Notes: generated by a model not told the origin, from the letters alone. Shown: positions 36,042 through 51,084, numbered from the stretch's first letter. The stretch: 64,000 nt of DNA from SAR86 cluster bacterium (GCA_002401885.1 NVUL01000001.1:32966-96965); one strand, 5' to 3'. Numbers and translations: made by a program.

Positions 36042-37745
36042 TTAGTTAGATGGTGCCGCCGCATGGTATGTCCAGTAGCCGATGAACATCTCATCCCAGC
36101 TCTGCAATCCAAAAACAAGTTCCTGACTTGGGTCAGGGTTAGCCGGATTGAATTCGGAATTATCGAAAGCACCGGTGACGTGTACTTTAGTGCCCGCCTT
36201 AATCTGTACTGGCTCTTCCAATTCATAAGTAGGCTGCCATGCGTAGCTGTAGTTTGGAACGCTAAGCAGATCAGTCATTGTGCCGTCTTCATTTTCCATG
36301 GAGAACTTCATGTCCTTGCCACGGAAGTGCATGTGAGCACGTAGGCCAGTTACGACTACGTCCTCATCGAACGTATATTGAGCCGCTGATTCGTAGTCCT
36401 GGTCGTACGCAGGGATTTTGAACTGTGAAGCTACCGAACGAGTGAAATTCTCGTACTTAGGTGGCTCGTCGTACATATACAGACCAATGAGCGTCTCATC
36501 AGTTGTCGCTTTACCGTTAGTTGTAAAGTGGAACTGCATGGACAATTTATGATCTTTAGGAATGTACACACCCGTATCTTCAGGGAAAGACATCGCATCT
36601 ACCTTACCGGGGGCATAACCCTCGAGGAAACGACGTGCAACAGAAGTTGTGTTGCCTTCTCCACCGTCGAAATTCTCGGCGGGCGCAGTTACGTAGGTGA
36701 GAAGGTGATGAAGAACTGTCTCGTCACCGGGGATAAACTGAACCGCTTTAACCCACTTGTCTTCGTCGAAAGGAAGCTCGACGTCCACATCGATGTAGTC
36801 GAGAACACCAGTGGCTGGAATTTCCATCTTCGGCGCCTTAACGATGAAGTCAGGCTCGCCTAGGCTCCACTCTTTCCAGTTAGGCATATCTATCTCTGTT
36901 AATGGGTCAATAGCCGCGGCACCGCGTGGTGCTCCAGCATCAATCCAGTGAACAAGAGTCTGCAGGTCTGCATCTGTCATGTAGCGCGCATTGTTGAAGT
37001 GCCCGATATTTGGGTCAACCTGTGTAGGTGGCATGCGCTTAGTAATAAGTGTTTCACGAATCATCGGCGACCAGCCCTGCAGCATCAGGTGGCTGTCCAT
37101 CGCGAATGGTCCAATTCCACCCTCGCGGTGGCAAGTTGCACATTGCTCAGCAATGATTGGTGCAACTTCTGTTGCATAGTCTGGAATTGCGCTTGCGTGA
37201 AATTCTTTTACTGGGAATTCGAGATCACAACCAACAGCATCAATAATCATTGTGCGCTCTACTGTTCCAGCTAATTCACTAGACAATGTAGCTGCTGCAC
37301 TAGCTACCGGGCCACGGTAGAGAATAGTAAGACGCTCTGGGTCGAGGATAACGATCTCCCCAGCCTTAGTCAGAGACAGAGTTTCAGAAACGATCTGGCC
37401 GTCGTCGAGCAGCAGGGGCAAGTCCGAACCCAGTGCCGATTTGGCGGAGCGAATCGCCTCAATATTAGATTCTGCCGAGGAGTTGATCAACGCAAACGCG
37501 ATACCCTGATCGCTCCATGCAGACGCCATAGCCTCTAGGCTAGCTACAGACGAATTGATGGCTGAACAGCTGCTATCGAAAGACATTAATACTAATGCTT
37601 CTTTGTTGCGGTAACGGCTCAACTGGTGGAAATCGCCGTTGCTATCCATAAGTCCAAAATCACCCACTCTATCAGGCAGCGCCATGGCTGAGGCAGATAG
37701 AACTGAAGCGATCAGGGCTATGCCGAATCCGATTAATTTATTCAT
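36042..37745 (-). CDS. Exported redoxin-like / cytochrome c-like (CATCH) / copper type II PHM-DBM-like monooxygenase, paralog A
   Basis: Signal peptide; redoxin-like segment with one Cys; EQCATCHREGGIGPFAMDSH...TKRMPP; copper-site-like HHLLTY, MQFHFTT, RAHMHFRGKDMKF, SWDEMFIGY. Confidence 0.8.
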   Translation of the reverse strand: MNKLIGFGIALIASVLSASAMALPDRVGDFGLMDSNGDFHQLSRYRNKEALVLMSFDSSCSAINSSVASLEAMASAWSDQGIAFALINSSAESNIEAIRSAKSALGSDLPLLLDDGQIVSETLSLTKAGEIVILDPERLTILYRGPVASAAATLSSELAGTVERTMIIDAVGCDLEFPVKEFHASAIPDYATEVAPIIAEQCATCHREGGIGPFAMDSHLMLQGWSPMIRETLITKRMPPTQVDPNIGHFNNARYMTDADLQTLVHWIDAGAPRGAAAIDPLTEIDMPNWKEWSLGEPDFIVKAPKMEIPATGVLDYIDVDVELPFDEDKWVKAVQFIPGDETVLHHLLTYVTAPAENFDGGEGNTTSVARRFLEGYAPGKVDAMSFPEDTGVYIPKDHKLSMQFHFTTNGKATTDETLIGLYMYDEPPKYENFTRSVASQFKIPAYDQDYESAAQYTFDEDVVVTGLRAHMHFRGKDMKFSMENEDGTMTDLLSVPNYSYAWQPTYELEEPVQIKAGTKVHVTGAFDNSEFNPANPDPSQELVFGLQSWDEMFIGYWTYHAAAPSN

Positions 37746-37951
37746 TACTAAGGCTCCAAAAAGCTAATTATTAACCTATTTATTAACCACAGCAGTCTAG
37801 CCCAATTGATGCAAAATGTGCAGCCTGAAACATTACTTTTTGTAACAAGTTGACGCAGATACCGTGCGGTTTACCGAGGCTTCTAACGAGGCTTGACCGA
37901 AAAATTGGAGATTTAGGAGTGGGCTGTCAGGTTTAGCATTCACACCACACT

Positions 37952-37975
37952 AAAAAAGGCCGAAATCGGCCCTCT
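37952..37975. terminator. Probable intrinsic terminator
   Basis: aaaaaaggccgaaatcggccctc. Confidence 0.6.
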
Positions 37976-38006
37976 GTGGAGGTCGTACTGGAGATTAAGC
38001 TTGTGT

Positions 38007-39773
38007 CTACCGGCTGGTTTTATTGTAGGAAAGATAGCCAATAAACATCTCATCCCAACTCTGAGCGCCTCCCCTGACAGCAGCGGCTGGGTCTGGGTTG
38101 CCAAGATTATATTGGGAATTATCAAAGGCACCCTCGATCATCACTCTCGATCCAGCAGGCAGTAACATAGGTTCGGAGAGGCGGTAGGTTGGTTGCCAGG
38201 CGAAATTGTAGTCTGGCACATTAATGATCTGGTCTTTTGTGCCATCTGGATAGACGACGCTGAAGCGCATGCGCTTGCCACGATAATGCATGTGCGGACG
38301 CAGTCCGTGCAACAGCACCTCCTCTTCGAACACATGGGACGCACGCATCGCGTGATCGGATACGCCCGGTGGAATTTCGATGTTACGCCCACCGTGGCTT
38401 AAGGAATAAGTAGAGTACTGATAATCGGGCTCTTCCTCGGCGAAATAGAGGCCTAGCTTTGTACTATCAATCGCTTCTTTTCCGAATGTCGTGTAATGCA
38501 GAGACATTTGCACCGCTGAACCCTTGGGTACAAATACTCCCGTTTTTTCGGGATACGTTACCGCCTCATCTTTACCAGGGGCATAGCCTTCCAGAAATTC
38601 TCTGTAGTTGTCGTTTTCGCCCTCAATGATTTCTTCAGCATAGTCAGCGGGAACGATATAGCTCAGCAAATGATGAAGAACTCGGCGATCGCCCGGAAGG
38701 TGTTGCACCGACTTAACCCAGACGTCTCCCTCGAAAGGCAATTCGATCGTAACATTCTCGTAGTCTAAGACGCCGGTTGCAGGCACGGTGAAGGCGGGCA
38801 CATCGACGATGTAATCAGGCTCCCCTAGCTCCCAAGCCGAATTAGGTGGCTCGATTAGAGTGAGCGGATCAACTTCACTGACACCACGGGGCGAGCCCGC
38901 ATCTATCCAGTGAATGAGAGTTTGCAACTCCTCTGCATCCATATAACGCGCGTTGGTAAAATGATTCACGTTAGGGTCAACTTGAGCAGGCGGCATGCGC
39001 TTGGTCATCATGACTTCCTTCATCATCGGCGACCAACCTTGGACCATCATATGCGAATCCATAGCGAATGGTGCTATGCCCCCTTCTACATGGCAGCTAA
39101 TACACTTCTCTTCCAATATTGGGGCAACCTCAGTCGCATAGTCAGGCGTATAATTGGCATGCATCTCTCTGGCTGGAAATTGCAGCTCACAACCGGCCGC
39201 ATCTGTAATGATAGTTTGCTCGATTGAGGCTGCATCACCGGCAACTGCGGCGGCCAACACATCTGCAAAAACGGTAGTCCCTGCTACGGCCTCAATATTG
39301 AGTGCGGGGCGTGCTCGCACCGGGTCAGTATCCAAGCCACCGCGGTAAAGAATCTGGCTGCGCGCCGGCTCCAATACCACTATCTCACCCGCCTTGCTTA
39401 GGCCAAGACTTTCGGCGACAAGCTGACTGTCATCTAACAAGATGGGTAGTTCGAAATTGTGTAGATTGTCCATCAGACGAACATCGTCGGCACTATCAAT
39501 GGCGTCGGAATTTATGGCAAGGAAGGTAATTCCTTGTTTCTCCCAAGTAGTACGCAGTAAGCGATACTTGTGCAGCTGCTCAATATTATCAATGCAGCCC
39601 ACCGCTGTAGCAATAATGACTACCGCCTTGCTATCGCCATATTTCTGCAGTTGGTGGTAGACACCCTTGTGATCGATTAGAGCGAAATTTCCAACTCGCT
39701 CAGCGCCAGCATGGGCTTGGATCGCGAAGACACTGTTTAATATGACGAGAACTAGTGCGCATAGCTTTTTCAT
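38007..39773 (-). CDS. Exported redoxin-like / cytochrome c-like (CISCH) / copper type II PHM-DBM-like monooxygenase, paralog B
   Basis: EKCISCHVEGGIAPFAMDSH...TKRMPP; HHLLSY, MSLHYTT, RPHMHYRGKRMRF, SWDEMFIGY. Confidence 0.8.
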   Translation of the reverse strand: MKKLCALVLVILNSVFAIQAHAGAERVGNFALIDHKGVYHQLQKYGDSKAVVIIATAVGCIDNIEQLHKYRLLRTTWEKQGITFLAINSDAIDSADDVRLMDNLHNFELPILLDDSQLVAESLGLSKAGEIVVLEPARSQILYRGGLDTDPVRARPALNIEAVAGTTVFADVLAAAVAGDAASIEQTIITDAAGCELQFPAREMHANYTPDYATEVAPILEEKCISCHVEGGIAPFAMDSHMMVQGWSPMMKEVMMTKRMPPAQVDPNVNHFTNARYMDAEELQTLIHWIDAGSPRGVSEVDPLTLIEPPNSAWELGEPDYIVDVPAFTVPATGVLDYENVTIELPFEGDVWVKSVQHLPGDRRVLHHLLSYIVPADYAEEIIEGENDNYREFLEGYAPGKDEAVTYPEKTGVFVPKGSAVQMSLHYTTFGKEAIDSTKLGLYFAEEEPDYQYSTYSLSHGGRNIEIPPGVSDHAMRASHVFEEEVLLHGLRPHMHYRGKRMRFSVVYPDGTKDQIINVPDYNFAWQPTYRLSEPMLLPAGSRVMIEGAFDNSQYNLGNPDPAAAVRGGAQSWDEMFIGYLSYNKTSR

Positions 39774-40084
39774 TTAAATAACCTTTCAGTTAGCAAGGTC
39801 GCTGCTAGAGTGTAAGGGGTAATTCCTCTTAAAATCTCACTTCGCTCTACCACGATGAGACAACGGCAGAATCCGATTAGATCTGGACTCAAGCAATACC
39901 GGTAGCTTAGCGCAATCTGCTTATTAACGAGAACAATAGACTGTAAGGCTTTGTGACAAATTGAAACTGACGCGGAGGTGGAAAATGCTACTAAATTACA
40001 TTAATTCAATAGCTTAAGGAATTTTTCTGCCGACTCAGAAACGCGAGTCCAGGCCGGCAGCAGAGCGTGATAAACGCTTCAAAT

Positions 40085-41464
40085 TTAGCTGTTAGCGTCG
40101 CGGCTAGCGCCATAAGTGCTCATGTTCTCAACTAGCGAGAATCGACGGAAAAGTTCGTACATTCCCCAGAGCGCGAGCCCGATAACGATTAACATCATGC
40201 CCCAGCGCATTAACCCCGAGAAGAAGATCGAATCGAAAATAGGCGCCTGCAATTGATACTGCGCAAGCGTATTGCCGCGATCCAACATCCAGTGCCAGGC
40301 ACTGTGCGCCAGCAAAGCGGAAAGCAGAATGGTGCCAATACGCTCCTGAACGAAGAAACGAAACAGAATGCGTAGCAGAGGAATGACCAAGATGAGCACA
40401 AGGATTTGACCAAATTCCACACCTACATTGAACGCCAGCAGGGAAGAGAACAGATGTCCGCCAGCAAATTGCAGCGTGTCACTAAACAGGAATGAAAAAC
40501 CAAAGCCGTGTACCAAGCCGAAACCAAAAGCAGCCACCCAGCGATGCTGTAGTTTTGCACCGACTATGTTTTCGAATGCCATGTAGACAATGGAGAGCGC
40601 TATTAGAGTTTCGATCAAAGGTGGGAACCAGAGCGCGTTAGGCGCCATGCCAAATGCCGAACTGATGAGAGTTATCGAGTGAGCGATAGTAAAGGACGTT
40701 ATCACTGGAATTAGCGCGCGCAAGTTACGCAGAGGTATCACGAGACAGAAAAGAAACAACAAGTGATCTATGCCATCCAGAATGTGTTCGAAACCCATAT
40801 TCACAAACCGGAGTGCGGCCTGATACCAGCGCGGGTCCAATAGCACCACACCTGGATTACCGAGATAATTGAAGACGCGTTCCGCGCCCGACGGCAATAG
40901 GAAGCGCAGCACGGTCGTAGTCTGATTCGACAAGGTGCCTATCTCTGGATTGATGGAGAATTCAGACTGATCCGACGAAATGGGATACGTCACCATGACA
41001 TCCAGCACACCCTGTCGCCAAAATAAATCTACCGAATCATCGAGTCGCGGGCTAAGAATATTTTCTAAGGCATCATCGAAGGTAGTGAAGGATCGATTTG
41101 ACGGCAGAGAAACTCGAACTGCCTCCAGCTGCTTCTCGGTCAATTCCTCACCGTTCTCATAGAAGCGAATGGATTCGGTGATGTAAACGCGAGCCGCATC
41201 ATTCAGGGAGAACTCCGCCTCGGAGAACTGAAGATAACCGGGGCCGCGCAGCGGGAAACTGATCTCACTAAAAGCCTCCATCGGCACACGCAATAACGCC
41301 GTAAGCTGGTTCCCTTCGGGTTTGACGAATGCGTACACAGTGACACGACTGGGAATATCGTGAGCTAAGCTCAGCGATGGCATCAAAAGAGCCGCAAGCA
41401 ACACACAGGGTGTAATTAGTTTTTTAAGCGAAACTACGCTTAATACTGCGCTAATTTTATTCAT
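40085..41464 (-). CDS. HupE/UreJ-family membrane protein with N-terminal periplasmic domain
   Basis: GFEHILDGIDHLLFLFCLV...FTIAHSITL...GFGLVHGFGFSFLF...FNVGVEFGQ; start trimmed to ATG at 41464. Confidence 0.82.
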   Translation of the reverse strand: MNKISAVLSVVSLKKLITPCVLLAALLMPSLSLAHDIPSRVTVYAFVKPEGNQLTALLRVPMEAFSEISFPLRGPGYLQFSEAEFSLNDAARVYITESIRFYENGEELTEKQLEAVRVSLPSNRSFTTFDDALENILSPRLDDSVDLFWRQGVLDVMVTYPISSDQSEFSINPEIGTLSNQTTTVLRFLLPSGAERVFNYLGNPGVVLLDPRWYQAALRFVNMGFEHILDGIDHLLFLFCLVIPLRNLRALIPVITSFTIAHSITLISSAFGMAPNALWFPPLIETLIALSIVYMAFENIVGAKLQHRWVAAFGFGLVHGFGFSFLFSDTLQFAGGHLFSSLLAFNVGVEFGQILVLILVIPLLRILFRFFVQERIGTILLSALLAHSAWHWMLDRGNTLAQYQLQAPIFDSIFFSGLMRWGMMLIVIGLALWGMYELFRRFSLVENMSTYGASRDANS

Positions 41465-41604
41465 AATTTCTTGTTTATTATTAGTAATTTCAGTTAGATA
41501 GATAGCGCGCAGTGGAAGTTGAATAGAGCCTCGATAGCGCTTCAATCGCTATCATCTAAAGACTGTTACAAATACTTACACCAAGCCCCCGGAAAATTTG
41601 GCCT

Positions 41605-41638
41605 GTGAGTATACTGTCTACAAAGAAGTGAGTATACT
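41605..41638. promoter_or_regulatory. Paired direct repeat GTGAGTATACT in divergent intergenic region
   Basis: Identical 11-mers at 41605-41615 and 41628-41638, each containing the palindrome AGTATACT, between divergent hupE-like and PAL-like genes. Confidence 0.6.
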
Positions 41639-41697
41639 CGGCCTTGCTCTAAGAGCATAAAACCTCCCGCAATTCGGGCATTTAGAGGAAAATAAGA

Positions 41698-42888
41698 ATG
41701 ACAAAGAAACTAATTATAGGGGCAACTTTAGTCGTTGCATTGGTTGTCCTTGGTCTTGGGCAATCGAAAATACAAGAGCCAAGCATCGCCGCATCTAATG
41801 ATGTAATGGCACCACATTTTCTCGTGGATCCATTCTGGCCTAAGCCACTTCCTAATCATTGGGCAATGGGCAACACAATCGGAGTTGACGTAGACGAGAG
41901 AGATCATATCTTCATCGTGCACAGAAATGACGCGTCTCAATTCGGTGGCAACACTGAAATTGGTCTACAGGGCGGCGTCGCAGAATGCTGCACTCCTGCA
42001 CCACCAATCATTGAAATCGACATTGAAGGCAACATCATCAATGCATGGGGCGGCCCTGTTGAAGGCGCACCTTATGACTGGCCTGCATCTAACCACGGTA
42101 TCGAAATCGCGCCTAACGGTGACGTTTGGATCGGTGGTAACGGCGCCGGTGACTCCCACGTTCTCGTGTTCACACGTGACGGCGAGTACATCCGTACAAT
42201 CGGCATGCAAGGCGAAGATCGCGACAGTAACAGCGAGACACATTACGGCCGCGTTGCTGAAATCGCCATTGACGCTGAAGCCAACGAAGCCTACTTCGCT
42301 GATGGTTATCAGAATAAGCGTGTTGCGGTTGTTGACGTAGCCACTGGCGCCTTGAAGCGCTATTGGGGTGCTTACGGTAATACTCCAGACGATACGGCGG
42401 ATGTAACCTATGTTCCCGGCCAGCCTGGACCTCAGCAATTCCGTGGCCCAGTTCACTGTGCAGAGCCTTCAAACGACGGACTTGTATATGTTTGTGACCG
42501 TGGTGCTGACCGAGTTCAGGTATTCCGCAAAGACGGCACTTACGTAAGAGAAGTTGTTTATAACCCAGCTACATTGAACCAAGGTTCGACTTGGGACATC
42601 GCTTTCTCACGTGACCCTGAGCAAGAGTTCATCTATCTTGCAGACGGTCAGAACTTCAAGATCTCTGTAATCGATCGTGAGTCAATGGAAGTACTTTACA
42701 CTTTCGGTCAAGGTGGCCGTCAGCCAGGTACATTCTACGCACCTCACAGTATTGCCACTGACTCTCAGAACAACATCTACACAACTGAGACTTATGAAGG
42801 CAGCCGCGTACAGAAATTCCTCTACCAAGGAGTTCGCCCGGTGACAGTTGTAGACCGCGCGCCAACTTGGCCTGCTGACGAGCTGTAA
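41698..42888 (+). CDS. Exported NHL/beta-propeller protein, peptidyl-alpha-hydroxyglycine alpha-amidating lyase (PAL)-like
   Basis: N-terminal TM/signal; blades SNHGIEIAPNGDVWIGG, GLVYVCDRGADRVQVF, APHSIATDSQNNIYTTETYEGSRVQKF resembling PAL metal/catalytic blades. Confidence 0.75.
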   Translation: MTKKLIIGATLVVALVVLGLGQSKIQEPSIAASNDVMAPHFLVDPFWPKPLPNHWAMGNTIGVDVDERDHIFIVHRNDASQFGGNTEIGLQGGVAECCTPAPPIIEIDIEGNIINAWGGPVEGAPYDWPASNHGIEIAPNGDVWIGGNGAGDSHVLVFTRDGEYIRTIGMQGEDRDSNSETHYGRVAEIAIDAEANEAYFADGYQNKRVAVVDVATGALKRYWGAYGNTPDDTADVTYVPGQPGPQQFRGPVHCAEPSNDGLVYVCDRGADRVQVFRKDGTYVREVVYNPATLNQGSTWDIAFSRDPEQEFIYLADGQNFKISVIDRESMEVLYTFGQGGRQPGTFYAPHSIATDSQNNIYTTETYEGSRVQKFLYQGVRPVTVVDRAPTWPADEL

Positions 42889-42909
42889 GAAACTGTTCAG
42901 AGCGTTTTA

Positions 42910-42948
42910 AACTAAGCCGTATCGAAGCAATTCGATACGGCTTTTTTA
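42910..42948 (+). terminator. Intrinsic terminator downstream of PAL-like gene
   Basis: gccgtatcgaagcaattcgatacggcttttttat. Confidence 0.85.
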
Positions 42949-42976
42949 TGCTCGATGATCTCTTGCGTATTGCCTC

Positions 42977-43178
42977 CTATCTATGACCAATACCCAAACA
43001 ATACTGAGCTGTGGAGAAACGGCAGCTCATCTTTACCAACCTTTATTCAGTTCTTTCTATAAGTATCATCTACGAAATACTGAGCGCAGGAGAAACGGTC
43101 TTTTTAACTTACGATAGATGCCGAATAGCCTTCTATCTATAAATATCATCTAAGAATTACTAAGCGCAGGAGAAACGG
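42977..43178. repeat. Three imperfect direct repeats, period ~76-80 bp
   Basis: Copies at 42977-43022, 43051-43098, 43131-43178; core (t)ctat.....tatcatcta.gaa.tactgagcgcaggagaaacgg. Confidence 0.8.
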
Positions 43179-43343
43179 CGTTCCGTCTTTACAACTATCA
43201 GTTCATCTCTCATTCATATGCCATGCTTGATCATAGTTAACATGTCAATTATGCTCAGACCCCGAACAGATACGGCTAATAGAGACATTCAATTAGCCAC
43301 CGCAACTAACAATAGATCAATAAGCGACGAGAGACTCATCTCC

Positions 43344-43916
43344 ATGAAAATTCGAACCCTGATTTCACTATGTGCCGCCTGCATTAGTTTATTCTCTATC
43401 CCCGCCCTTGCCGTGGAAGATATTGTCATCAACTATGAAAAGACTGGTAGCCCGCGCGCCGATCTGAGCAACATGAAAGTTAGTTTGCGCATTGCCGAAT
43501 TTACCGACGGCAGGATGGTAGAGAACCCGCGCCTGATTTCAGATGCCCAGCTTTTGGGTGCCGATGGCTTTCAAGCTGAGAAGGCGATCTCGGCTATAAT
43601 TCAGGATGCTATGCAAAGCGGCTTCGCGAACGCGAACGCGAATCTGGTGGATGCCGACGGCGATATGTTCCTACAGGGAAACCTGACCGCCAGTGAGGTA
43701 CAGATCGTCGATCGTGGTGGCGTTGAGACACTGCAATTAACACTGCGCGCCTCTGTACAACTAATGAGTGGTAGTCGCACCGTGTGGCAGACAAACCTAT
43801 TCGGTCGCGGTAGAGCCCCTACCAGCGAAGGTATGGCAGTCACTGTACGTGCTGCCTTGGACAGGCTCATCAATGAGCTCATAGGTGATGACTATTTTCT
43901 AGCAGAGATTCGCTAG
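43344..43916 (+). CDS. Exported protein of unknown function
   Basis: MKIRTLISLCAACISLFSIPALAVEDIV signal peptide from ATG 43344; remainder resembles YajG-like lipoproteins only loosely. Confidence 0.7.
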   Translation: MKIRTLISLCAACISLFSIPALAVEDIVINYEKTGSPRADLSNMKVSLRIAEFTDGRMVENPRLISDAQLLGADGFQAEKAISAIIQDAMQSGFANANANLVDADGDMFLQGNLTASEVQIVDRGGVETLQLTLRASVQLMSGSRTVWQTNLFGRGRAPTSEGMAVTVRAALDRLINELIGDDYFLAEIR

Positions 43917-43949
43917 AAATTTATTCCGCTGTTTCCGCTCTACATTTTC

Positions 43950-43980
43950 AAAGAATCTAGAGATATCCTCTAGATTCTTT
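43950..43980. terminator. Bidirectional intrinsic terminator between convergent genes
   Basis: aaagaatctagag-atatc-ctctagattcttt. Confidence 0.75.
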
Positions 43981-43982
43981 GC

Positions 43983-44849
43983 CTAGAAACAACCCAGACT
44001 GGTGTCCATCGATCCTAATACTAGTCTGGGGTTTTCTGGGAAAAATTCCAAGCCCGTCGCTTTCTCAATCTCATCTATACTTGCCCTGTTGTCGCAATGG
44101 TGAACATGCACGGGCAAATCCTGATCGAAGATGAACGCCGTAGCCCGATTGTCCGGCGAGACTACGATTTTAAAAAATGCATCTGGCACCCTGTGCTGAG
44201 TCTGTGTTTCTAAACTCGCAGTGACTGGCGTCTCTCTGAATATAGGCCCGGTTAAGACATACACTTCGTTCTCTCTATTCACCCAATTTCTAATTGACCA
44301 TTCCAAACCATACCAGGCGCCCTGACTCAAATTCCGGCTACGCGCCACAGCATTGCTCATGTAGTTCACTTCGTTCCAGTAGGGTGTGCCTGCAAAATTG
44401 ACCAGCGGCACGAATCGCGCACGAGTAAGTCCACTCTCTTCGGCGTTGATAAAATCTGCCGCACTCAGCGTCTCCTCGACAAAGTCATCGACCAAGGCCT
44501 CGCGCGATAGGCTCGATGCAATTCCTATGGAGCCCGAGGTAACCCGATAGGCAGCCCAATCCGCCGCCTTGTTGCGTGTGCTGTATGAAAGCGCATAGAT
44601 CGGACGAAGAATCAGGTGATTCTCTGTGCTGCCTCCGACGGGGCAACCGTGCAAGCAGTGGGCTATACGCAGCTCAACAGACTGACTTTGGGACATGGAT
44701 ACAATCAACACCACTGCCAGAACAACTCTCCGAAATAGGGAGAGAACGCCTGCCGAGAACGCCGGATGCCCTAATTGAATGACAATTTCTGCCTGTTTGG
44801 TGCATTTCAGAAGCAAGCTACTAACCTCACTGAAGGTCTGGGAAGACAC
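43983..44849 (-). CDS. DNA/RNA non-specific endonuclease-like (NUC1 fold) exported protein, catalytic motif altered
   Basis: NYMSNAVARSRNLSQGAWYGLEWSIRNWVNRENEVYVLTGPIF matches the NUC1-family core, but the DRGH position reads TRAR; true start may be further downstream. Confidence 0.65.
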   Translation of the reverse strand: MSSQTFSEVSSLLLKCTKQAEIVIQLGHPAFSAGVLSLFRRVVLAVVLIVSMSQSQSVELRIAHCLHGCPVGGSTENHLILRPIYALSYSTRNKAADWAAYRVTSGSIGIASSLSREALVDDFVEETLSAADFINAEESGLTRARFVPLVNFAGTPYWNEVNYMSNAVARSRNLSQGAWYGLEWSIRNWVNRENEVYVLTGPIFRETPVTASLETQTQHRVPDAFFKIVVSPDNRATAFIFDQDLPVHVHHCDNRASIDEIEKATGLEFFPENPRLVLGSMDTSLGCF

Positions 44850-45188
44850 GGGAAGGAGTTGAATTCTAACGCCTGCTGCACCCTAAACTCCAGCACCCGT
44901 TAAGCATTAATTCGGGCCTGGCTATGGCCTAATTTTGCTCATGAAAACAGCAAAACCCCCTCTACAAGATCCACCCATTGGCAATAATTCCGCTGTTTCC
45001 TGCAATTGAAAAATTGCGCATCGCGCAAAAACACTGAGTTTCAGCTCAATTCTGCGGAAAACAGCTATTCGATTATTCAAATTCAGTATTTTTTTAATAT
45101 TCAGGAAGTATTCCTTGATTTTGCATCCTACTATGCGCCCTAAGTTAGAAAGCAGTACCTGATATTTATGAAGTTTGAGGAGAGCAAA

Positions 45189-46934
45189 ATGCTTAGATTT
45201 TCAATGATTGCCAAGATCGCAACTGCATCACTGATGACAGTTTTCATTGGCATGTCCGCCAACGCCGCTGATCGAATTAGTGATTTCTCACTAACCGATG
45301 CCGATGGCCGATTTTTCCAACTAAGTCGTCATGGCGATGAACAGGCTATTGTCCTTTTCTCCTTCGATCCAAAAAGCAGAGACGCACGTCGTGCCGCCGG
45401 TGATCTTGCCGACGTGGCTGAACAATTCGAGGGCCAGAAGGTCGAGTTCTTGATGATTAGCTCCACGGGTTCCACGGACAAACTGGCCATGAGAGAAGCA
45501 GCAGAGAAAGAAGACATCACTCTGCGCATACTCATGGATGACACTCAATTGGTAGCTGAAGAGCTGGGTCTTAGCCGAGCTGCAGAAGTAGTAATTCTTG
45601 ATCCTACCGCCAAAGAAGTTGTTTACCGCGGCGCGCTAAACGATCGCTTCGCTGAGGGTAGCCGCGCAAGACGCGCCAAAGTGCATTATGTCGCAGACGC
45701 ACTAACGGCGATTCTGGCTGGTCAGGACCTCAGCATTGAGCAAGTGGCGAGTAAGGGCGACGAGATCGACTTCTCAGCTAGCGTCGCTGTTACCGCATCA
45801 GTTTCCTACGCCAACGACATCGCGCCTATTCTTAAGGAGCGCTGTGTTACTTGTCATATGGAAGGCGGCATAGCCCCTTTCGCTATGAGCAGCCACCAGA
45901 TGGTTCAAGGTTGGTCGCCAATGATTCGTGAAACGCTCTACACCAAACGCATGCCACCGGGTCAGATTGACAATGAATTCGTGGAAAGCTTCCACGGCGT
46001 AAATCACATCACCATCGAGGAGACTCAGAAGCTGGTTAGCTGGATCAATGCAGGCTCTCCAAACAATGACGACTCCGATCCTCTTGCGGAATATCGCCCG
46101 GAAGTCGTTAAGTGGGCCAATGGCACGCCTGACATGATCATCCCAATTCCTGAGCAACGCATCCCAGCGACGGGCGTTCAAGACTATCGCAACCTGATGC
46201 TTCCTCTCGACCTTGACGAAGACATCTGGGTGAAGGCGGTTGCGTTCGCACCAGGCGACACTACGGTACTTCACCACATCATTGCCTTCTCTTATGGCGC
46301 TGATGGCATGAATGAATTTGAAATACTGAATCAAGGTATCGGTCTTGGCGCTTATGCGCCGGGCAATTCCCTTAATACCTATCCAGAAGGTGCTGGCTAC
46401 CCGCTTGAGGCTGGCGGTGGCTTGATGCTACAAATGCACTACACCACCTCAGGCAAGGAAGCAGTAGATGCATCCGAAATTGGAATCTATCTCTGGGACA
46501 AAGAGCCAGATCGCCGAATACTTGGCGGCTCAGCTGCAGACCTTGAGATCAGCATCGAGCCATTCGAAGCTGATCACGAGATGATAGCGACCAAGAAATT
46601 CCGTAAGGATGCTCTTTTGACTATGGTTGGCCCGCACATGCATTACCGCGGTTACGATGCCAATTTTAAACTCGTCTATCCTGATGGCAAGGTGGAAGAA
46701 ATTCTCAACGTACCTAATTATCAGTTCAACTGGCAGAAGACTTATGACTTCAAAGAGCCTAAGTTCTTGCCTGCTGGCACTGAGATGGTGTTCAGGGCTA
46801 CATTCGACAACTCGGCGAATAACCCTTTCAACCCTGACCCATCGTCAACGATCTCGTGGGGGGAACAAACCTGGCAAGAGATGTTCTTCGGCTTCTTCCG
46901 CTATGTAGATGCGGAAACAGGTGAAGGTGAATAA
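45189..46934 (+). CDS. Exported redoxin-like / cytochrome c-like (CVTCH) / copper type II PHM-DBM-like monooxygenase, paralog C
   Basis: ERCVTCHMEGGIAPFAMSSH...TKRMPP; HHIIAF, LQMHYTT, GPHMHYRGYDANF, TWQEMFFGF; GAGGAGA RBS before ATG 45189. Confidence 0.8.
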   Translation: MLRFSMIAKIATASLMTVFIGMSANAADRISDFSLTDADGRFFQLSRHGDEQAIVLFSFDPKSRDARRAAGDLADVAEQFEGQKVEFLMISSTGSTDKLAMREAAEKEDITLRILMDDTQLVAEELGLSRAAEVVILDPTAKEVVYRGALNDRFAEGSRARRAKVHYVADALTAILAGQDLSIEQVASKGDEIDFSASVAVTASVSYANDIAPILKERCVTCHMEGGIAPFAMSSHQMVQGWSPMIRETLYTKRMPPGQIDNEFVESFHGVNHITIEETQKLVSWINAGSPNNDDSDPLAEYRPEVVKWANGTPDMIIPIPEQRIPATGVQDYRNLMLPLDLDEDIWVKAVAFAPGDTTVLHHIIAFSYGADGMNEFEILNQGIGLGAYAPGNSLNTYPEGAGYPLEAGGGLMLQMHYTTSGKEAVDASEIGIYLWDKEPDRRILGGSAADLEISIEPFEADHEMIATKKFRKDALLTMVGPHMHYRGYDANFKLVYPDGKVEEILNVPNYQFNWQKTYDFKEPKFLPAGTEMVFRATFDNSANNPFNPDPSSTISWGEQTWQEMFFGFFRYVDAETGEGE

Positions 46935-46955
46935 TCTTAGCTAGTTGTTTGTATA

Positions 46956-46992
46956 AAACCCGGCCACTGCAAAGTGACCGGGTTTTTTTTCG
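46956..46992. terminator. Intrinsic terminator
   Basis: aaaacccggccactgcaaagtgaccgggtttttttt. Confidence 0.85.
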
Positions 46993-47141
46993 GCTAGATT
47001 TGCTGCCAGAATTCTATGGTCACACGCCGTCCCCTGAGCTATTAAGATGCAATCGGTTGCCATTACCGGTCGTCCTGACAGCATAGGGGGAAATTGCTAG
47101 TATCCAAGCTCTCCTTATCCATCTGGAAAGAATTACACACC

Positions 47142-48797
47142 ATGAAGAAGTTACTCCTATCCACACTGACTTTGTCTCTGATAGCGTCTATGAGCGCTAC
47201 GCTAATCGCTGATACCACACTCTATACAAATGTGAACGGCTATACGCTCGACTCGAATCGAGAGCTGCAGCAGTTTACCGCCATCCAGTTCACGGATGAT
47301 CGAGTTGATAGACTTTTTAGAGAAGACGAAGAACTGCCGCAGGATGTTGATACCCTAATAGATGGCAGTGGCCAGACGCTGATTCCAGGGCTCATCGATG
47401 CCCATGGACACGTTCTTAGCTACGGTCTAAGTCTGTTGCGGGTTGATTTGGTAGGAACCGAGACAGAGCAGGAGGCAGTGCAGCGGGTCGTAGACTTCGC
47501 GGAGAATAGCGAACAGCTCGAATGGATTCAGGGGCGCGGCTGGAATCAAGTGCTGTGGGATAGTAACGAGTTTCCATCGGCAGTGAGCCTGGACGCGGCC
47601 CTGTCAGACAAACCTGTTTGGCTCAGCCGTGTCGACGGCCACGCGGGATGGGCAAACAGTACGGCTATGGAATTGGCCGGAGTCGACCGTCGAAGCGGAG
47701 ATCCAGACGGCGGACAAATTATTCGTGACGAGGATGGCAATCCTACCGGCGTTTTCATAGACAATGCCATGGCGCTAATCCGGACGCAGATCCCAGCAAC
47801 GAGCATAGAAGAACAGAAATTCGCTCTGCGCACGGCGATGCTCGAACTGGCGAAGCAGGGACTAACCAGCGTGCATGATGCGGGCGTAGGGAGCAGTGCG
47901 ATAGAAGCCTATAAGCAGCTATTAGCAGACGGCCCTCTGCCTATCCGAGTCAACGTGATGTTATCTGCCGGAGACGATTTCTTTGAGCAACGCCTCAGTG
48001 AGGGACACTATCGCAGCGCAGATGATACGCTGACTATGAACAGCGTGAAAATCGCTGCAGATGGTGCACTGGGCAGCCGCGGCGCTGCGATGATTGACGC
48101 CTATTCTGACCTCTCCGGACACACTGGACTGTTACTGCACAATCCCGAACGTCTTGAGTATTTTATGCGCGCTGCCATGAACGCGGGATTTCAGGTCAAC
48201 ACCCATGCGATCGGCGACAATGCCAATAAGGTAGTACTGGATAACTACGAGCAACTTATCGCGGAAACGAACTCAAGAAGCTTGAGGCACCGAGTAGAAC
48301 ACGCACAAATCCTGCGCTTTGAGGACATACTCCGCTTCGCTGAACTAGGCGTCATTCCTTCGATGCAGGCAACACACGCGACCAGCGACAAGAATATGGC
48401 AGTGGACAGGATTGGTGATGTCCGTATTCAGGGCGCTTATGCGTGGCGCAAACTAATCGATGCCGGCGCATTGATAGCTAACGGGTCCGATTTTCCCGTA
48501 GAGTCGCCGAACCCCTTCTTCGGCCTGCACGCAGCGATCACACGCCAGGACAAGAGTAACGAACCTCCGGGTGGTTGGTTCCCCGAAGAGAAGATGACCG
48601 CAATTGAGGCCTTCGCCAGCTTTACCATCGACGCGGCCTATTCGGGCCATCAGGAAGATTTGCTCGGCACTCTGGAACCGGGCAAGAAGGCAGACTTCAT
48701 TATTCTGGATAGAGATATTTTCGCAATCGATGGGAGCGAAATCTGGCAGATCGAAGTAGAAGAAACGTGGGTTAATGGGCAACGCGTTTCCTACTAG
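47142..48797 (+). CDS. Exported amidohydrolase family protein (amidohydrolase_3/YtcJ-like)
   Basis: TLIPGLIDAHGHVLSYG...HAIGDNANKVVLDNYE...HRVEHAQ...NGSDFPVE; signal peptide from 47142. Confidence 0.88.
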   Translation: MKKLLLSTLTLSLIASMSATLIADTTLYTNVNGYTLDSNRELQQFTAIQFTDDRVDRLFREDEELPQDVDTLIDGSGQTLIPGLIDAHGHVLSYGLSLLRVDLVGTETEQEAVQRVVDFAENSEQLEWIQGRGWNQVLWDSNEFPSAVSLDAALSDKPVWLSRVDGHAGWANSTAMELAGVDRRSGDPDGGQIIRDEDGNPTGVFIDNAMALIRTQIPATSIEEQKFALRTAMLELAKQGLTSVHDAGVGSSAIEAYKQLLADGPLPIRVNVMLSAGDDFFEQRLSEGHYRSADDTLTMNSVKIAADGALGSRGAAMIDAYSDLSGHTGLLLHNPERLEYFMRAAMNAGFQVNTHAIGDNANKVVLDNYEQLIAETNSRSLRHRVEHAQILRFEDILRFAELGVIPSMQATHATSDKNMAVDRIGDVRIQGAYAWRKLIDAGALIANGSDFPVESPNPFFGLHAAITRQDKSNEPPGGWFPEEKMTAIEAFASFTIDAAYSGHQEDLLGTLEPGKKADFIILDRDIFAIDGSEIWQIEVEETWVNGQRVSY

Positions 48798-48855
48798 TTC
48801 GTAGCTGGCCACTTAAGTAACACATGGCGATGCTTCGCAGCGCAGGTGAACGACT

Positions 48856-51084
48856 ATGAATAAATGTCCCCTATCAGCTTTACTACTGACCGCTCTTCTT
48901 ACAACCTGTTCGCCGCCGTCGCAGGAGGCTGAACCGGTAAGCCAAGCGATTGCTTCGGCAGCGCAGATCGATCCTGCTGAGTTGGCTCGCTGGGAACAGC
49001 TGGCAAGCAGTGTCACCATCAGCAGAGACAAATGGGGCATCGCTCACATCTACGGAAAGACAGATGCGGATACCGTATTCGGCACGCTGTACGCACAGGC
49101 CGAAGACGATTTTAATCGAGTCGAAACCAACTACATCAATGCTATGGGGCGCTTGGCAGAGGCCGAGGGAGAAGCCGAACTGTTTCGCGACCTCCGCATG
49201 AAACTGTTCATCGATCCTGTCGATATGCAGGCGCAATATAAGGCGAGCCCAGAGTGGCTGCAGAGCCTGATGAATGCGTTCGCAGACGGGCTTAACTACT
49301 ATCTCTACACACACCCTGAGGTGACACCCAGAGTTATCGATCGCTTTGAGCCGTGGATGGCGTTGACGTTTTCGGAAGGCAGCATCGGCGGAGATATTGA
49401 GAGAGTCAATCTTCGAGAACTACAACGCTTCTATGGTGACGGCACACTAGTGGCGCAAACCGAATCAGTTTCCGATGGAGAACCGCGCGGATCCAATGGC
49501 TTCGCGATCGCCCCCTCTAATACAGAACATGGCAATGCGCTGCTGTTGATCAATCCACATACTTCCTTTTTCTTTCGTTCCGAGCTGCATATGGTCAGCG
49601 AAGAAGGGTTGAATGCCTACGGTGCGGTAACCTGGGGGCAGTTCTTTATCTATCAGGGCTTCAATGAGAACGCAGGCTGGATGCATACGTCTAGTCGCGC
49701 CGATGCGATAGATGAATACCTAGAAACCATTGTACAGAAGGATGACGGCTACTATTACCTGTTTGGCGACGAGGAACGAAAGCTAGAAGAAACTGAAATC
49801 AGCCTTCCATATAAGAATGATGATGATATGGCGGCGAAAAATTTCACTGTCTATCACAGCCACCATGGGCCGATAATTCGCGAGCGGGATGGCAAGTGGG
49901 TAAGCATTAAACTCATGCAGGAGCCAATTAAGGCGCTCACTCAATCCTACACCCGCACCAAGGCGCAGAACCATGAAGAGTTCTACGCGAGCATGGAGTT
50001 ACAGACTAACTCTTCGAACAATACGGTGTACGCCGATTCCGATGGCAATATTGCCTATTACCACGGCAACTTCATTCCGGTTCGTGACCCTTCATTCGAT
50101 TGGAACAGTCCGCTAGATGGCAGCAATCCGGAAACGGAATGGCAGGGCCTACACCCAATCGACGAGATAATTCATCTACTGAACCCGACCAACGGTTGGA
50201 TTCAAAACACTAACAACTGGCCATTCACAGCGGCTGGGGAATATAGCCCGCGAGCTGAGGACTATCCTCCCTATATGGCAAACAATGCGGAAAACTATCG
50301 CGGTGTACACGCCGTTCGTGTCTTGAAAGAGACAAGCGACTTCACCATAGATAAGCTTATCGAGGCTGCTTATGACCCCACACTAACCGCCTTCGAAGAC
50401 TTGATTCCTGGCCTTCTGCTTATAACCGCGGTTGATAACCAAGGGGAGTTGCAGGCCTCTATTCAATCTCGCACGCTCGAGTATATCGATCTACTTCGGA
50501 ACTGGGATTACAAGTATTCCATCGATTCCACTGCTACCACACTCGCGGTCTACTGGGGCCAAGCCCTGATGAATCAAGTAGCAACTGACGCCTCCAGAGC
50601 CAACATCAATGTCTACAAATACATGGCGAACAATGCCAGCATCGCACAGAAATTAAGTTCACTGCGCAACGCAGCAGAGCAGCTTGAAACCGATTTCGGC
50701 GATTGGCGTGTCCCCTGGGGAGAGATCAATCGCTATCAGCGACTGAGCGGCGATATCGTGCAAGACTTCAATGATGAAGCGGTGAGCCTTCCTGTAGCTT
50801 TCGCATCTTCACGCTGGGGTTCGCTCGCATCGTTTGGAAGCCGAACCTATCCGGGAACCAAAAAGATGTACGGCACGAGTGGAAATAGTTTTGTCGCAGC
50901 GGTGGAGTTCGGCGACAAAGTTACTGCGAAGGCAATTACGGTGGGGGGATTGAACAATGATCCCAACTCTCCCCATTTCGATGATCAGGCTGAGATGTAT
51001 ACCAAAGGCGAATTTAGGGACGTACTGTTCTATAGAGAAGATATCGAAGCGAACTTAGAAAGAGAATACACTCCCGGGAACTAA
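48856..51084 (+). CDS. Penicillin acylase (Ntn-hydrolase) family protein
   Basis: DKWGIAHIYGKTDADTVFG...GEPRGSNGFAIAP (Ntn Ser motif)...NNTVYADSDGNIAYYHGNFIPVR. Confidence 0.9.
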   Translation: MNKCPLSALLLTALLTTCSPPSQEAEPVSQAIASAAQIDPAELARWEQLASSVTISRDKWGIAHIYGKTDADTVFGTLYAQAEDDFNRVETNYINAMGRLAEAEGEAELFRDLRMKLFIDPVDMQAQYKASPEWLQSLMNAFADGLNYYLYTHPEVTPRVIDRFEPWMALTFSEGSIGGDIERVNLRELQRFYGDGTLVAQTESVSDGEPRGSNGFAIAPSNTEHGNALLLINPHTSFFFRSELHMVSEEGLNAYGAVTWGQFFIYQGFNENAGWMHTSSRADAIDEYLETIVQKDDGYYYLFGDEERKLEETEISLPYKNDDDMAAKNFTVYHSHHGPIIRERDGKWVSIKLMQEPIKALTQSYTRTKAQNHEEFYASMELQTNSSNNTVYADSDGNIAYYHGNFIPVRDPSFDWNSPLDGSNPETEWQGLHPIDEIIHLLNPTNGWIQNTNNWPFTAAGEYSPRAEDYPPYMANNAENYRGVHAVRVLKETSDFTIDKLIEAAYDPTLTAFEDLIPGLLLITAVDNQGELQASIQSRTLEYIDLLRNWDYKYSIDSTATTLAVYWGQALMNQVATDASRANINVYKYMANNASIAQKLSSLRNAAEQLETDFGDWRVPWGEINRYQRLSGDIVQDFNDEAVSLPVAFASSRWGSLASFGSRTYPGTKKMYGTSGNSFVAAVEFGDKVTAKAITVGGLNNDPNSPHFDDQAEMYTKGEFRDVLFYREDIEANLEREYTPGN

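Follow-up and report, generated by a model that had tools for sequence, protein, structure and literature searches.

The window analyzed here, a 64,000-nucleotide stretch of DNA from SAR86 cluster bacterium (GCA_002401885.1, NVUL01000001.1:32966-96965), encodes between positions 36,042 and 46,934 three long exported proteins, denoted A, B, and C, and a beta-propeller protein. A, B, and C resemble the animal copper monooxygenase PHM, and the propeller resembles the lyase PAL. In animals, PHM and PAL turn glycine-ended molecules into amides, and the animal enzyme needs vitamin C. An earlier examination of the window (termed the sequence-only reading) proposed a two-step PHM–PAL locus, and the open reading frames of A, B, C, and the propeller have exactly the boundaries that it named. 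The main features are listed below, with positions counted from the first letter of the window.

36042..37745, minus strand: protein A, with a signal peptide, a redoxin-like domain (residues ~25-170), a heme c domain, and a PHM-type dicopper core (~290-565)
37128..37142, minus strand: CATCH heme c attachment motif of A, residues 202-206, in a domain that also holds M238; both Cys, the His, and M238 are invariant in 21 paralogues
36705..36710, minus strand: H346 and H347 of A, CuH ligands, invariant and aligned to the HH of DBH
36528..36530, minus strand: H406 of A, CuH ligand, invariant
36327..36341, minus strand: R469-A-H471-M-H473 of A, the Arg240 equivalent and CuM ligands, from the orthologue alignment
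36087..36092, minus strand: E552 and M553 of A, invariant; M553 is a CuM ligand
38007..39773, minus strand: protein B, with the three-domain architecture of A, 50% identical to A, Arg240 equivalent kept
41698..42888, plus strand: PAL-like six-bladed propeller with an N-terminal hydrophobic helix, matched to rat PAL (3fvz) by profile and by Foldseek
45168..46934, plus strand: protein C, with the architecture of A and B and all copper and heme ligands; Gly at the Arg240 position and Phe at the Tyr318 position

Each of the three proteins begins with a signal peptide, continues through a redoxin/AhpC-TSA-like domain and a cytochrome c domain with one heme, and ends in a copper type II monooxygenase core. 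Pfam matches A to PF03712, AhpC-TSA, and Cytochrome_CBB3. Of the two copper monooxygenase families to which the sequence-only reading pointed, PF03712 is above its cut-off in A (27.5 bits against 23), borderline in B (22.3 bits, or 23.9 in the genome search), and below the cut-off in C (17.1 bits), while PF01082 is not listed by Pfam for any of the three at E ≤ 0.1. The heme motifs are CATCH in A, CISCH in B, and CVTCH in C, each followed by a conserved KRMPP whose Met is the probable heme axial ligand; CXXCH and this Met are present in every PHM paralogue of the window genome. The redoxin-like domains of A, B, and C lack CXXC and probably serve a structural or docking role. Both the redoxin-like and heme c domains, N-terminal to the copper core, had been missed by the sequence-only reading, as had the differing substrate-Arg position of C, and the fused heme changes the likely source of electrons.

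The copper core is identified by both fold and ligands. An AlphaFold2 model of A (pLDDT 87.6, pTM 0.83) was searched with Foldseek against 350,542 PDB chains, and ranks 1 to 31 are all PHM or DBH (E 7.6e-15 to about 3e-10, TMt 0.38-0.68), followed by ResA-like and related thioredoxin folds that cover the N-terminal domain. Of the 21 PHM-type proteins encoded by the window genome (3.6 Mb, 84% complete), 7 are long and 14 are short, and all have a single CXXCH. A profile of these paralogues, which align with 30% mean identity, finds human DBH (E 1.5e-5 for the whole profile, 7e-8 for the core only) and pairs HH with HH, HxH with HxH, and M with M; a profile from A and B orthologues alone matched no PDB chain. 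In A numbering, HH346/347, H406, and M553 are invariant in the 21 paralogues, and H471/H473 are conserved at 90% or more. Across 200 unique homologues the CuH histidines are essentially 100% conserved, and in A, B, C, and their orthologues the HxH and Met of CuM are kept in every case where the position exists and can be read. These ligands correspond to rat PHM H107 and H108 (H346 and H347), H172 (H406), H242 and H244 (H471 and H473), and M314 (M553). Chance occurrence of the His/Met motif is ruled out because the pattern is invariant over 200 homologues and accompanied by the fold match, which bears out the copper pattern first noticed in the three exported proteins. Copper monooxygenase chemistry is assigned to A, B, and C with high confidence, with copper expected to occupy both sites.

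A further set of paralogues, termed "long-other", departs from this pattern. In about 33 of 50 such homologues (for example L050:2796-4535 and L055:10004-11698), the CuM HxH is replaced by RMN or KxN. Position 471 is R in 28 of the 50 and K in 5, so that about two thirds lack the CuM His pair. The HxH-less proteins keep the heme, CuH, and mostly the Arg, often lie by 2-4 tandem short PHM genes, and are probable CuM-less derivatives judging from their residues. Their loss of the CuM pair means that non-oxygenase derivatives exist in the family, and it lends some weight to the idea that the copper cores in the window are no longer oxygenases and act instead as heme/copper redox relays, copper carriers, or sensors. 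That idea is very improbable for A, B, and C, which together with their orthologues keep all six copper ligands wherever these are readable.

The residues near CuM also bear on the substrate. Arg240 of rat PHM, two residues ahead of His242, binds the substrate carboxylate. The equivalent position in A, R469, lies two residues ahead of H471 and is Arg in all 44 A orthologues and all 23 B orthologues. Elsewhere it is Gly (C), Gln (61 of 68 short paralogues, and DBH as well), or Phe, Met, or Tyr in the PHM homologues of genomes that lack PAL (Arg in 0 of 6). Retention of the Arg in A and B orthologues and other residues elsewhere single out A and B as PHM-type, and an Arg240 equivalent is in line with a substrate that ends in a carboxylate. 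The suggestion that paralogues A to C confer different specificities is therefore plausible in a refined form: A and B are PHM-type, and C is probably something else.

For the propeller, the top match of the predicted structure among 350,542 PDB chains in Foldseek is rat PAL 3fvz (E 3.0e-16, TMt 0.74), and the sequence profile aligns with rat PAL from end to end (58-374, E 8e-15). Pfam, NCBIfam, and phmmer assign the protein to the broad NHL family, and TRIM-family NHL proteins, some scoring above PAL, match the profile in repeated part-length stretches. A generic NHL/TRIM-type repeat was considered and rejected, since sequence ranks Thin, a TRIM-family NHL protein, first by way of repeated blades, and only PAL combines a full-length match with structural rank 1. 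The sequence-only reading had predicted likeness to both animal enzymes, and structure prediction agrees, the A model matching PHM/DBM and the propeller model matching rat PAL.

The active-site pocket of PAL can be traced in the propeller. In the alignment, HR75-76 pairs with the HRG segment (Arg533), H133 with His585, DGY204 with DGY (Tyr654), DR268 with DR (Arg706), and H350 with His786. H253 falls one residue off His690 in profile and simple alignments, a displacement that fits the blade register with a one-residue loop indel. We take the rat pocket R533, H585, Y654, H690, R706, and H786 to correspond to R76, H133, Y204, H253, R268, and H350, none of which varies among 21 homologues as distant as 45% identity. 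As a diagnostic by itself the pocket is weakened by nine remote NHL propellers of the window genome, which keep R/H/H/R and miss the Tyr and/or the third His; only these two residues single out the PAL type. The PAL-like character that was first proposed for the propeller is upheld by the structural rank and by the aligned, invariant pocket. Its metal pocket is upheld in part, with the Zn ligands aligned to 3fvz and the Ca-site Asp replaced. The propeller is likely a PAL-type metal-dependent lyase and is probably membrane-anchored.

Two further genes accompany this group.

40085..41464, minus strand: HupE/UreJ_2-type membrane protein (PF13795, 140 bits), in a conserved PHM-HupE-PAL order
43218..43916, plus strand: small exported protein that weakly resembles LptE; its place downstream of PAL is conserved at 29 of 80 loci

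The HupE open reading frame is listed from 41545, and its homologues fit an ATG at about 41464. From sequence it is likely a candidate metal permease. A role as a copper importer, proposed from a His after the signal peptide, was dropped because the diverged HupEs of loci L100, L101, and L103 start ADD and not AHD.

In a scan of a genome collection, the loci nearest to A belong to Pseudohongiella/OM182-type Gammaproteobacteria, with the recurring gene order C–endonuclease–LptE-like–PAL–HupE–B–A–CstA–BirA. PAL and HupE are present at nearly every A-type locus whose sequence reaches far enough; L108, an exception, carries its A-like gene as a copy of 60% identity in a different context. The PAL-HupE-PHM order is kept down to 60-65% protein identity, and at L100-L104 the flanking genes have been shuffled around an unbroken LptE-like–PAL–HupE–PHM–PHM core. 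Many loci carry a second tandem PAL. A different, unlinked PAL paralogue immediately precedes a short PHM of the same orientation on contig C88 of the window genome (L047) and in two further genomes (L175 and L178); most of the remaining unlinked PAL copies lack a PHM closer than about 5 kb. Near PAL paralogues are also found exported proteins with a (R/Q)PDLQG(T/V)W motif and no Pfam match (L047:5671-6642 and L048:12502-13548).

Both families are characteristic of the genus to which the window genome belongs. The PHM family occurs in 37 of 37 genomes, with 9-24 heme-copper monooxygenase paralogues in each of the window genome and its 36 relatives (genomes of ~2-6.6 Mb). PAL occurs in 34 of 37, the three without it being only 65-75% complete, and the window genome holds four close copies, that of the window included. 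The paralogue expansion is mostly invisible to Pfam, as PF03712 at E 0.05 matches only 6 of the 21. Neither PHM nor PAL was found in 22 genomes from other families of the order. Wider co-occurrence of PHM and PAL in Pseudomonadota was tested and not found: the samples outside the genus never hold both, six genomes having PAL only and six PHM only, so the pairing is clade-specific in the Pseudomonadota sampled. The recurrent pairing foreseen by the sequence-only reading thus stands as linkage within the genus, including diverged relatives, and is absent from the Pseudomonadota samples beyond it.

Several observations from these searches are of separate interest. The genomes with PAL-like proteins and no PHM (G028, G035, G127, G151, G159, and G167) have the PAL-type pocket residues in those checked, and Methylobacterium and Skermanella plasmids carry PAL-like propellers annotated as hypothetical; such propellers may form an orphan lyase-like family. 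The Bacteroidota species Chondrinema litorale has both families on different plasmids, the PAL-type gene on L195. On another of its plasmids, at L196:8249-10302, a separate redoxin gene lies directly upstream of a heme-PHM gene, an unfused form of A, B, and C; the fusion in the window therefore joins parts that are neighbors elsewhere. Locus L142 (CAMCRC010000005.1), titled a Klebsiella pneumoniae metagenome-assembled genome, carries a marine-type PHM and is probably a misnamed record.

These features are consistent with a PAM-type two-step system that would operate in the periplasm, split over separate genes. A (and B) would bind the glycine-like carboxylate end of a substrate such as a peptidyl-glycine or N-acylglycine through the Arg240 equivalent. 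CuM would activate O2 for hydroxylation of the substrate alpha carbon, with electrons passed to CuH by the fused one-heme cytochrome c domain. With such a donor, the respiratory chain or c-type cytochromes of the periplasm could supply electrons, so that ascorbate need not be the only source, and the fused heme protein may stand in for the vitamin C needed by the animal enzyme. The propeller, through its three-His metal site, Tyr, and Arg residues, would then cleave the resulting carbinolamide to a primary amide and glyoxylate, coupling the second step to the first. HupE probably supplies metal, and C would act on other substrates. We give about an even chance that A and/or B together with PAL carry out oxidative N-dealkylation (amidation) in two steps in the periplasm, acting on a glycine-like carboxylate substrate and with CuH fed by the fused heme. 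The fuller proposal, held more tentatively, is a prokaryotic, ascorbate-independent counterpart of PAM, in which a PHM with its own heme and a genuine PAL perform peptide or N-acylglycine amidation or dealkylation among ~20 paralogues per genome.

Several findings weigh against this proposal. A has no Cys downstream of its heme motif, and so the disulfides of the eukaryotic PHM core are missing. In the propeller, the PAL Ca-site Asp (D787) is replaced by Ser351, directly after the third His. C and the short paralogues have no Arg240 equivalent, and the short PHM adjoining the C88 PAL has Gln at that position. The genus-wide synteny represents one inherited locus and not independent events. Joint occurrence was looked for in the Pseudomonadota samples outside the genus and not found, and with the families apart there, PAL-like proteins must have a PHM-independent role in those genomes. 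The two-step locus of the sequence-only reading is sustained in part, by the folds, the active sites, the Arg of A and B, and the synteny, and not by C or by distribution beyond the genus.

In a rival explanation the two functions are separate: A, B, and C would be heme-fed copper monooxygenases of small or lipidic substrates (DBM-like, or performing another benzylic or aliphatic hydroxylation), and the propeller a metal-dependent lyase or hydrolase that is a mere neighbor. In its favor, genomes outside the genus have one family or the other by itself, the Arg is missing from C and from most short paralogues (the majority of which have Gln like DBH), and the propeller falls in the broad NHL family. 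This explanation is nevertheless rather unlikely, given that the PAL-HupE-PHM order is conserved over diverged genomes, that further pairs of PAL with short PHM exist, that the PAL pocket is complete with Tyr and third His, unlike that of the other NHL propellers of the genome, and that the Arg is present in every A and B orthologue.

The genes that follow C may also bear on the substrate.

47094..48797, plus strand: exported Amidohydro_3-type amidohydrolase (Pfam), co-directional with C; possible member of the pathway
48856..51084, plus strand: penicillin-acylase-family Ntn hydrolase (Pfam), PvdQ-like, co-directional with C; possible member of the pathway

C and these two genes (45168-51084) run in one direction, recur jointly in relatives, and form a possible amide-degrading operon; speculatively, the two hydrolases would suit a catabolic route that hydrolyzes the amide. 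Such a catabolic setting would fit hydroxylase and lyase acting in sequence on a non-glycine substrate, oxidatively removing some other N-, O-, or S-carboxyalkyl group (for instance from sarcosine-, taurine-, or betaine-like or carboxymethyl compounds) so that the cell can scavenge nitrogen or carbon. From the Arg240 equivalent a carboxylate can be predicted but not glycine, and bacteria are known to demethylate methylguanidine with a hydroxylase and a lyase (PMC12508155). Even so, the best-characterized joint chemistry of the two folds is on glycine-extended substrates, and a non-glycine substrate is considered improbable.

The amidating system proposed here can be placed beside known enzymes. 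Rat PHM (1phm/1opm/3mll) shares the two-domain fold, the six copper ligands, and, in A and B, the Arg240 equivalent. The bacterial proteins differ from it in their ~17% identity, fused redoxin and heme c domains, absence of core Cys, 21 paralogues, and undetected PF01082. Human DBM (4zel) has the same copper ligands and is the sole PHM/DBM-family chain retrieved by sequence profile (E 7e-8); unlike A and B, it has Gln two residues ahead of HxH and DOMON instead of heme c and redoxin, and it is an ascorbate-fed tetramer. Rat PAL (3fvz), the best PDB structural match of the propeller, aligns at three His, the Tyr, and two Arg of the pocket, whereas the propeller shows ~20% identity, the Asp to Ser change at the Ca site, and a separate, probably membrane-anchored chain. 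MdgH/MdgL, which demethylates methylguanidine, likewise pairs a hydroxylation with a dedicated carbinolamine lyase in bacteria, but MdgH is an Fe/2-oxoglutarate enzyme and MdgL, according to its authors, is not homologous to PAL (PMC12508155).

In Table 3 of a 2020 review, PHM and DBM appear solely as copper proteins of eukaryotes (PMC7435645), and the 2025 study of the bacterial carbinolamine lyase names PAL as the only comparable activity known to its authors, unrelated to their own enzyme (PMC12508155). Nothing specific was found on bacterial PHM, bacterial PAL, heme-fused PHM, or the clade, and the literature searched, with most subscription papers outside it, describes no bacterial PHM–PAL linkage or heme-fused PHM, which is weak evidence of absence.

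The existence in bacteria of a linked PHM–PAL pair whose active sites are complete would inform views on how peptide amidation arose, and would make simple, separate enzymes available for producing amides. The fused heme would make the electron route to the distant CuH/CuM pair directly testable. That common marine bacteria have 9 to 24 of these enzymes in each genome would point to an unrecognized copper-dependent oxidation of dissolved organic matter.

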